From: Microcaldota archaeon
GTDB lineage: Archaea; Micrarchaeota; Micrarchaeia; Micrarchaeales; CABMGC01
Length of the DNA stretch: 60,822 bases
Reading direction: 5' to 3'
Assembly: GCA_028866835.1 (NCBI GenBank)
Contig: JAGWHJ010000004.1
Location: forward strand, 1 to 60,822
The stretch's first letter is position 1; every line of letters begins with the position of its first letter. Below, one piece after another: positions 53,354 to 55,872 of the stretch. The notes beneath the pieces are model-generated. The model saw only the letters and a list, made by a program, of their open reading frames with translations, was not told the DNA's origin and ran no database searches. The translations under genes and the position numbers were made by a program.

Positions 53354-53406
53354 ATACCTATTGCAGATGAAATCTTAATAAGGTATCCTGGGTAATGTAT
53401 TGCTGT

Positions 53407-53530
53407 GCCGGGATGGCAGAACCAGGTATAGCGCCAGATAGCATTGGCGAGACTCGAGATCTGGTGTCCTTCGGGACTTTTGGGTTCAAATAAACTTCCA
53501 GCAGAAGTTTTGGAAATCCCAATCCCGGCG
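53407..53530 (+). tRNA. tRNA-Ser (CGA) with two inserted sequences
   Basis: Acceptor GCCGGGA (53407-53413) pairs perfectly with TCCCGGC (53523-53529), with G73 typical of serine tRNAs. The anticodon loop CTCGAGA (53453-53459, anticodon CGA) is followed by TCTGG, but its partner CCAGA lies at 53434-53438, so 14 nt (53439-53452) are inserted in the anticodon arm. The long variable arm is GTCC-TTCG-GGAC. In the T-arm, TTGGG-TTCAAAT is separated from CCCAA by 26 nt (53492-53517) that contain a perfect AAACTTC/GAAGTTT hairpin. Removing both gives 84 nt. The D-stem has one A-A mismatch. TATA-like TCTTAATAAGG at 53371-53381. Splice boundaries are ambiguous by 3-4 nt because of short repeats. Confidence 0.85.
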
Positions 53531-53643
53531 CATTTATAGCCCTTGACCCCTCCACTGTAGCTAGCGTACTAGACGCGAGACAGCACCAAACCTCGCCAGT
53601 TAATAATATATATCACGGGCGTGAGGGTATTTTTGGTACATGC

Positions 53644-54555
53644 ATGGCCTTAGCGTATAAGCGTCAAAAAACAATCTTTTCGCAGGGGCTGACACAGGAA
53701 CAGCGTGATCTGTTCATGGAGTATGAGGATCTTGCGCGAACGGTCGCGAGGCAGACCCTGCCCGGCAATAGAAACGGAACAGTCTGGCAGGGTGACGTAG
53801 AATCTGCGGCGCTTGTAGCGCTGGCGGAGTGCGTGCTCACTTATGACAGCAGCTTTGGCATGCCATTTAAGGACTTTGCACATTTCAAGTTAAGAAGCGC
53901 TGCTGTAGACGAGGTCAGGCACATTTTCGGGAAGAAGAGCAGGGAGACAGGAGTTGCAGCGCAAGATGGGTATGGTGCGCCTTGGGAGCACGAGGCGAAC
54001 GTCTTCCCATTTCAATACCATCAGAAACCGAGGCTTATCGCATCCGACATAGCTCCAGAAGCGGAGGGGAAGGCCATGGGTGAGGAAGGGTATTCGCATG
54101 TAGAAGGCTATGATTCCGCCTTGAGCATGCTCTCAATGATAGTAGACCCCAGGGTGCGGGAGGTCGCCGTAAAACATGTCTTGGGCGATATCCCTCTTAG
54201 AGAGGTTGGTGAGAGCATGGGCATCACAGAATCGAGGGCCTGCCAGCTCATGAGCATTGCAAGGAAGGATATGGAGGACGGGCTTGCACTGGAGGAGCAT
54301 GGCATACTTACTCAGTCGTCCATCGAGCTGCTCAGATCCCTTGTCGATGATATGCACTCTAATTGGAACCTGAGGGAGCTGGCCGAAAAACTGGGCACGT
54401 ATAAGGACCATGTCCTTGCTAATATAATGAGGCTTGCAAAGCATGGCTTTATTTCAGTAGATTACGATGGCGCAGGAAGGGTCATGGGGATAGAGCTAAG
54501 GGAGGATAGGGTAAAGCCGCTGCTCGAATCCGAGCAAGGGTCCGGCTCAGGATGA
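53644..54555 (+). CDS. Sigma-70-like (FliA/WhiG-type) protein with C-terminal winged helix
   Basis: 303 residues, cytosolic. Residues 16-96 match sigma region 2: LFMEYEDLARTVARQTLP, then DVESAALVALAECVLTYD and FKDFAHFKLRSAAVDEVRH, the FliA-like FxxYAxxRIRGAxxDELR block. Residues 158-215 match region 4: VDPRVREVAVKHVLGDIPLR with EVGESMGITESRACQLM, the EIGxxxGVTESRVSQL helix-turn-helix. Residues 222-288 look like a winged helix (NWNLRELAEKLGTYKDHVLA). Sigma factors are bacterial; archaea use TBP and TFB, so this is unexpected. Its own TATA (TTAATAATATATAT at about 53600-53613) is archaeal. It may be a DNA-binding regulator derived from a sigma factor. Homology is by motif reading. Confidence 0.75.
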   Translation: MALAYKRQKTIFSQGLTQEQRDLFMEYEDLARTVARQTLPGNRNGTVWQGDVESAALVALAECVLTYDSSFGMPFKDFAHFKLRSAAVDEVRHIFGKKSRETGVAAQDGYGAPWEHEANVFPFQYHQKPRLIASDIAPEAEGKAMGEEGYSHVEGYDSALSMLSMIVDPRVREVAVKHVLGDIPLREVGESMGITESRACQLMSIARKDMEDGLALEEHGILTQSSIELLRSLVDDMHSNWNLRELAEKLGTYKDHVLANIMRLAKHGFISVDYDGAGRVMGIELREDRVKPLLESEQGSGSG

Positions 54556-54615: not shown

Positions 54616-55872
54616 TCATTCGTTTGAGGCCGCCAATATCTGCTTGGCATCAAAATCCTGATTTTTCATTATCTCGTTCAGCAATACGGTCGCGTACGAG
54701 CCCGAAGGCACGGAGAAGCTTATCTTCAGCGACTTGGGCGAGACCGCATCGCACTTTATCCCAGTGACAGGGGAGAGGATGGGCCTGAGGCTGCCTGCCA
54801 TGCTGAGCTCGGGGATGCCCTTTATATTGAACTGCTCCTTGGAAATGCCTATCTTCTCCATCGCCTCACCGATGTAGCTGCTGATCATCCTGTCATCGGT
54901 CTTGTAGCCTACCAGCGCCTCCAGCGGGTACGTGCCGTCGGGCTCTGCCTTTGAGACGTCGGGGAAGCCGTAGAAGTTCATCCCGCAGCTTACAATTGAA
55001 TCGAAGTCGCGCCTCTTTATGCGCTTCTCTACGGCCATGTTGAATAGCAACGATTCCACGGAGTGTATGAACATTATCGCTATGCCCCTGGGCAGGGCCC
55101 TTACAGCATTCGTGTAGTTGTCGTATTCGGCGAGATGGTTTATCACGGTCCGCTCCACGCGGAGGTATCCGGGGAAGTATTCCTGCGCCTTCTTGAAATC
55201 CTGCTCCTCGGCGAGCCGCTTCCTCGCCTCTATCGCCTCCTTGTTCTCCTCGCCGTGCGTGTTCGTGAGGAGGTCCATGACGGCCTCCTTCGTCTCGCCG
55301 CGCATCAGCTTGACGCCTATGCTTGCGTTGTTCAGCCTTATGCCGAACCTCTGCCTGTCGAAGTAGTTCGGCATCATCCCGTCCAGTTCGGAGAGCACGT
55401 TAAGAGCAGCCTCCTTCGGATTCCTGTTGCTTATCTTCCTGATGGTGGCCTCGAAAGCGTTACCCACGTTGCTGCCGAGCTCCACTCCGTTGCCGCTCTG
55501 CCATGCGCCGTTTATGCTGAGGTCCTTGATCTTGAAAGATGAGAACTGCTCCGGCTTCGTGCCGAAGATGCTTGCCAGCTGCACCGACACGGACATGCGG
55601 TCCTTCGATCCCGCGTAGCCTATGGACTTCCTCCCCCTGGAGAGCCGCTTCGCCAGCGTCACCAAGGCATAGGAAGTGTCCCACCTGGTCTTCTGCAGCA
55701 CCATCACGGTGAACTTCCCGTCGGCGCTCTCCGTCTCTCCGAGCTCCTCGGGAGCGTACTTCCTGCCTGGCTCGAGCACCATGCCCTTTTCGGTTATCTC
55801 CTTTACAACAAAGTCCTCAGGGCTTTCCTTTATGACGCCTGAAATGCCCCTGGATTTGGAAAGAGTCAGCAT
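54616..55872 (-). CDS. truD: tRNA pseudouridine synthase D
   Basis: 418 residues. The TruD signature SIGYAGSKDRMSVSVQ places catalytic Asp91, with IKESPEDFVVKEI at the N-terminus and the family insertion domain in the middle (EEQDFKKAQEYFPGYLRVER). It makes pseudouridine at tRNA position 13. FDRQRFGIR is the second conserved block. It is convergent with the sigma-like gene and its start at 55872 is preceded on the minus strand by an AT-rich element (GGTTTATTAAGAC) near 55895-55907. Confidence 0.95.
   Translation of the reverse strand: MLTLSKSRGISGVIKESPEDFVVKEITEKGMVLEPGRKYAPEELGETESADGKFTVMVLQKTRWDTSYALVTLAKRLSRGRKSIGYAGSKDRMSVSVQLASIFGTKPEQFSSFKIKDLSINGAWQSGNGVELGSNVGNAFEATIRKISNRNPKEAALNVLSELDGMMPNYFDRQRFGIRLNNASIGVKLMRGETKEAVMDLLTNTHGEENKEAIEARKRLAEEQDFKKAQEYFPGYLRVERTVINHLAEYDNYTNAVRALPRGIAIMFIHSVESLLFNMAVEKRIKRRDFDSIVSCGMNFYGFPDVSKAEPDGTYPLEALVGYKTDDRMISSYIGEAMEKIGISKEQFNIKGIPELSMAGSLRPILSPVTGIKCDAVSPKSLKISFSVPSGSYATVLLNEIMKNQDFDAKQILAASNE

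Follow-up and report, generated by a model that had tools for sequence, protein, structure and literature searches.

The window, by which we mean the whole stretch of 60,822 nucleotides that was analysed, carries the gene of a protein (P0001; Table 1) that is almost certainly a sigma-70-family homologue. In the reading that we prefer (probability about 0.5), P0001 is a captured sigma-derived DNA-binding regulator that would act on ordinary TBP/TFB promoters. This reading is based on the sigma homology of regions 2 and 4, a changed region 2.2, a kept ESRxxQ motif, an archaeal host and the empty syntenic sites in relatives of the host.

Table 1. Positions of the features discussed. Plain numbers refer to the window; other loci are given as contig label and position, with the genome label.
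Feature	Position	Strand	Basis or remark
tRNA-Leu(GAG) gene, intron in the T-loop; flanks the inserted gene upstream	53405..53532	+	relatives have a homologous tRNA in this position; acceptor arms
TATA-like A/T run TTAATAATATATAT, some 36 nt upstream of the ATG	53600..53613	+	by eye
Small palindrome CACGGGCGTG adjoining the TATA-like run	53614..53623	.	sequence
CDS of the sigma-like protein (P0001), 303 aa	53644..54555	+	ATG start, no internal stop
Sigma region 2 of P0001, residues 16-94	53689..53925	+	profile and PDB matches; pLDDT about 80-97
Low-confidence linker of P0001, residues 105-151, at the place of FliA region 3	53956..54096	+	pLDDT <50
Sigma region 4 of P0001, residues 157-212; its recognition helix, ESRACQL, is of FliA type	54112..54279	+	pLDDT about 88-97
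C-terminal winged helix-turn-helix of P0001, residues 220-299	54301..54540	+	closest to PF25212 HVO_A0114 (below cut-off); pLDDT about 70-83
TruD gene, flanking the inserted gene downstream (shown for context)	54616..55872	-	PF01142, E 5.3e-87; synteny
Tandem sigma-like array (G203)	L071:7852-15136
Tandem sigma-like array (G201)	L070:33-3991
Tandem sigma-like array (G202)	L072:189-3738
RpoD/RpoS-like sigma (G025)	L002:1111-2286
RpoD/RpoS-like sigma (G025)	L007:1204-2307
RpoD/RpoS-like sigma (G025)	L008:1063-2277
DEAD/H-type helicase with sigma region 4-like helix-turn-helix (G116:C100)	L078:184-3408
Half-size TBP (G113)	L149:1242-1562
Half-size TBP (G028)	L151:787-1206
Half-size TBP (G002)	L152:783-1079
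Half-size TBP (G070)	L153/L154
Half-size TBP (G080)	L156/L157
Half-size TBP (G025)	L147:1286-1639
Half-size TBP (G025)	L148:1459-1752
Half-size TBP (G000)	L146:1510-1923

Of the NCBIfam profiles, the whole protein matched FliA_WhiG TIGR02479 in two stretches (E 8.3e-11) and, over residues 20-211, the sigma-70 superfamily profile TIGR02937 (E 1.8e-8); among PDB sequences it matched FliA chains (E 9.6e-8) and WhiG (E 4.9e-6), with regions 2 and 4 aligned in order. The scores stayed under the curated cut-offs of both profiles (34.2 versus 42.9 bits for TIGR02937 and 42 versus 189.6 bits for the FliA/WhiG subfamily TIGR02479), which makes P0001 a divergent member. A region-2-like block and a region-4-like helix-turn-helix had been described in an earlier note on this DNA, and searches with each part alone bore out both. 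Region 2 alone (residues 1-106) matched TIGR02479 (E 1.2e-6) and PDB FliA (E 5.9e-5), and region 4 alone matched TIGR02937 (E 1.5e-4). In the Pfam search of P0001, Sigma70_r2 reached only E 0.087 and Sigma70_r4 E 7.6e-5 (22.6 versus 24.1 bits). The sigma-70 r2/r4 profile check that the same note had proposed thus found a region 2, and the separate searches ruled out chance similarity or a general helix-turn-helix protein only.

The proposed FliA/WhiG layout holds for the order of the regions and fails for the full anatomy: region 3 is absent from P0001, and profile and PDB sequence searches matched nothing from residue 105 to residue 156. The extra winged helix claimed to follow the sigma regions is real in the AlphaFold model, as a predicted helix-helix-strand-strand arrangement at residues 224-285. 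The C-terminal part matched winged-helix families only, with E 3.6e-5 and 23.9 bits against a gathering cut-off of 27.6 for PF25212. A Pfam profile search of P0001 gave no match to the cyclin-fold repeats of archaeal TFB (PF00382); the TFB of this genome is encoded at another place.

The AlphaFold2 model has a mean pLDDT of 77 and was run on a 21-row alignment of sigma homologues, so that it is sigma-biased; in it, the linker is unstructured where FliA carries region 3. Foldseek matched this model to sigma factors in the PDB, including WhiG and FliA, and the named top matches in a viral library were phage sigma factors or polymerase subunits. Because of the alignment bias, a single-sequence model was searched as well; it was poor (pLDDT 50), and its best structural matches were again sigma factors. 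Global TM-scores were low (0.19-0.35 by query length), because the relative placement of the domains is undefined. Models with and without homologues have only sigma factors at the top.

Region 2.2 is the face of sigma that holds the polymerase clamp, and it has conserved D, Q, G and G residues. Here P0001 reads GDVESAALVALAECVLTYD and E. coli FliA reads DDLLQAGGIGLLNAVERYD; in a comparison that takes in P0002, a relative described below, E. coli FliA has DDLLQAGGIGLLNAV, P0001 GDVESAALVALAECV and P0002 GDAESEATIGMIDAL. The bacterial core-binding motif DLxQxGxxGL is missing, with DVESAALVAL in P0001 and DAESEATIGM in P0002, and its Q and first G are gone from both proteins. The FliA-type recognition helix of region 4.2, ESRxxQ, is retained in P0001 as ESRACQL; in a viral FliA-like set, E and S are each present in 16/17 proteins and R and Q in 17/17. 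The motif comparison therefore indicates that P0001 has kept the DNA-reading helix and that its polymerase-holding motif has changed, and the altered region 2.2 is a suggestive sign of a lost polymerase grip. Region 2.2 is similarly altered in the phage FliA-like proteins L117, L127, L130 and L139, which may still be working sigmas, so that motif loss is no proof of lost polymerase binding; it argues mildly against recruitment of RNA polymerase by P0001.

These residues bear on the alternative that P0001 is a true initiation factor, used by archaeal RNA polymerase at a few genes without TBP/TFB, which we regard as possible but unlikely. Region 2 might then dock on the coiled coil in the polymerase clamp, and region 4 and the winged helix might read upstream DNA. 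The clamp coiled coil is common to all cellular RNA polymerases, and both bacterial sigma region 2 and archaeal TFB/TFE act there. Along with this universality, such a role is favoured by the fold and order of regions 2 and 4, which appear preserved in the model, by the recurrence of sigma-70 proteins on archaeal chromosomal contigs of the phylum, and by three RpoD/RpoS-like sigmas (best 118-126 bits) in a genome of the same family, G025, in which the full core-binding motif is intact as QEGSLGL or QEGSIGL. Against it stand the replaced core-binding residues of P0001, the missing region 3 with its finger, the orphan status of the gene in its family and the absence of a FliA-type promoter (TAAA-N15-GCCGATA) from the window. 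Archaeal Rpo2 is also not known to have the flap-tip helix by which bacterial polymerase secures region 4. The G025 proteins provide a natural contrast for asking whether sigma factors are usable by archaeal polymerase at all. The earlier note had also considered repression and bridging to the machinery of a bacterial partner; sequence alone cannot separate these from polymerase recruitment, and no evidence of bridging was found.

The earlier note took the host for an archaeon, and this is supported: the host is a genuine member of the archaeal phylum Micrarchaeota (Microcaldota at NCBI), and its own genome (G000) has one TFB, a TBP and an archaeal RpoB above cut-off. Archaeal genes in the window include those for STT3, GGGPS, TruD, NFACT, RNase Z, LonB, TopoVI and DnaG (the last three named by eye). 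These genes, the surrounding gene order, which many genomes of the family share, and the presence of RpoB, TFB and TBP ruled out a chimeric contig or bacterial contamination.

The order GT2, tRNA-Leu(GAG), TruD, a 272-aa protein and an epimerase is conserved in many genomes of the family. Relatives with that order have no sigma-like gene in the interval from tRNA-Leu to TruD, and no P0001 orthologue was found among 97 relatives. The empty site implies that the gene was gained singly, beside a tRNA gene. Other single ORFs fill the same slot in two relatives, L083 and L107 (by eye), so the slot takes up genes. The tRNA-Leu(GAG) gene of the window was missed by ARAGORN and Rfam; in relatives it has T-loop introns of differing lengths, and it is intronless in L087. 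The third-position G+C of the P0001 gene, 0.594, is the lowest among genes from 49 kb on and about 1.4 sd below the window mean (0.709, sd 0.084). This is a weak signal, and a few other genes in the window are lower still; the value gives mild support to a recent gain. Upstream, no sigma-70-type promoter was found. The TATA-like run would be consistent with an archaeal promoter, and the palindrome next to it is a possible candidate operator that could well be chance at such length.

For the captured regulator that we prefer, we infer that the donor of this single gene was probably a bacterium or a phage. DNA reading would fall to the region 4 helix together with the winged helix, region 2 would serve as a folded binding domain whose tight grip on RNA polymerase has been lost, and the protein would block or help assembly of the normal initiation complex at a few TBP/TFB promoters. 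Its DNA targets and regulatory role we likewise infer.

We consider it quite unlikely that the gene is instead a recent acquisition from a phage or bacterium, without a settled function and drifting to loss. Its presence at this site in one genome only and its absence from syntenic relatives would fit such a history, as would the tRNA-adjoining slot where single ORFs come and go and the mildly atypical third-position G+C, but the 303-codon frame is intact, the DNA-reading helix is preserved, an extra domain is fused in a high-confidence model and a TATA-like A/T-rich stretch lies upstream. It is improbable that an element once integrated at tRNA-Leu left P0001 behind as a regulator of viral or plasmid origin, made for promoters of the virus or of the infected host. 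Phage contigs do carry the FliA-like proteins without region 3 that are nearest to P0001, and tRNA genes such as the adjoining one commonly serve as integration sites, but the site holds one extra gene only, with no integrase and no flanking direct repeat of the tRNA end, and tblastn searches of plasmids and phages returned no match at E 0.01.

A search for relatives of P0001 among 84,980 species found one only, the distant P0002 (E 7.3e-6, 26% identity), from 'Candidatus Micrarchaeota archaeon isolate DBS1-2.bin49' (JAJYFQ010000008.1; the same protein is on G113:C91). P0002 belongs to the same archaeal family, is FliA-like, shares the region 2.2 start GD[VA]ES.A and passes the TIGR02937 cut-off with 48.5 bits. 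It differs from P0001 in its length of 234 aa, its lack of a winged helix and its locus, a chromosomal archaeal contig on which it lies beside HisRS, exosome and proteasome genes. A two-sequence profile searched against 301 phylum genomes returned G000, G113 and weak generic sigma matches only.

The earlier note knew of no established archaeal system of this kind, and here it has to be corrected. Archaeal sigma factors were first described by Rinke et al., according to PMC6126073, and sigma-70 family genes in DPANN, mostly in Woesearchaeota, have been reported with mis-binning excluded (PMC8204110). In our own collection, the TIGR02937 cut-off was exceeded in 38/301 phylum genomes, an upper bound that includes some matches on likely contaminant or phage contigs (for example L062). 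Sigma in archaea is thus not new, and P0001 is a rare variant among archaeal sigma proteins. It shares with the DPANN sigma-70 proteins (Rinke et al., cited through PMC6126073; fam00359 of PMC8204110) the occurrence of a sigma-70 gene in an archaeon with TBP and TFB. No anti-sigma factors were found for the DPANN proteins and their role was left open (PMC8204110); the literature that we searched held no functional study of archaeal sigma factors.

With bacterial FliA/WhiG (sigma-28), P0001 has in common regions 2 and 4 in the same order and the ESRxxQ recognition helix; it differs in having no region 3, a replaced region 2.2 motif, an added C-terminal winged helix and an archaeal host. Phage FliA-like sigmas without region 3 (L117, L126 and L130, IMG/VR) have the same short layout of region 2 followed by region 4, and region 2.2 is altered in several phage FliA-like sigmas as it is in P0001, but these proteins lie on phage contigs, have no such fused winged helix and are 20-27% identical. 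Most other sigma proteins collected from the phylum group with RpoD/RpoS/RpoH (weak support), unlike the FliA-like P0001, and none was found to share its domain pattern. A tree of 46 sequences placed P0001 and P0002 among FliA and phage proteins, and the remaining sigmas from micrarchaea joined RpoS/RpoH; this split between FliA-like and RpoD-like proteins has weak support (76/65), and the viral rows had been chosen by likeness to P0001; the tree left the origin of P0001 and its relationship to P0002 without resolution.

The survey of the phylum also brought up other sigma-like genes. On archaeal chromosomes of three species of one genus (G201-G203), divergent sigma-like genes of about 290-580 aa stand in tandem, as many as seven in an array, and their neighbours look by eye like archaeal isoprenoid-pathway genes (UbiD/UbiX-like, isopentenyl phosphate kinase, aconitase X-like). 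A 1074-aa DEAD/H-type helicase contains an internal sigma region 4-like helix-turn-helix. Two contigs binned as micrarchaeal look otherwise, L062 (G275:C29) like the source of a Bacteroidetes-type ECF sigma and L077 (G019:C56) like a bacteriophage with a lysozyme-like gene and sigma-like genes; they call for caution when sigma genes are counted in archaeal genomes assembled from metagenomes. TFB was found alongside sigma in 12/14 tested genomes. In the G025 assembly (83% complete), no TFB was found and TBP genes are present.

Sigma versus TBP/TFB is an accepted dividing line between bacterial and archaeal transcription, and in DPANN archaea sigma genes recur with no known role. The case of P0001 would show how a sigma gene turns into an archaeal regulator, with DNA reading kept, the polymerase motif lost and a winged helix gained. 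A wider proposal, which we hold to be unlikely, is that sigma-derived proteins serve certain micrarchaea as functional initiation factors beside a stripped-down TBP/TFB system with half-size TBP. If true, a factor of bacterial type, to which a winged helix has been added, would direct archaeal RNA polymerase to special promoters.

The half-size TBP may deserve more attention than the sigma-like protein. In the host's order of Micrarchaeota, TBP is a single-repeat protein of about 97-140 aa, which implies a half-TBP dimer like the inferred TBP ancestor; we found no paper on it in the literature searched. Most genomes of family f2 have two separate half-TBP genes, and many of family f1 have only one, including the single-contig G028 and the three-contig G002. 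Another family of the same class (G201, G203) has a normal two-repeat TBP. In G000, a contig ends inside an apparent near-identical tandem repeat of half-TBP (98/99 nt).
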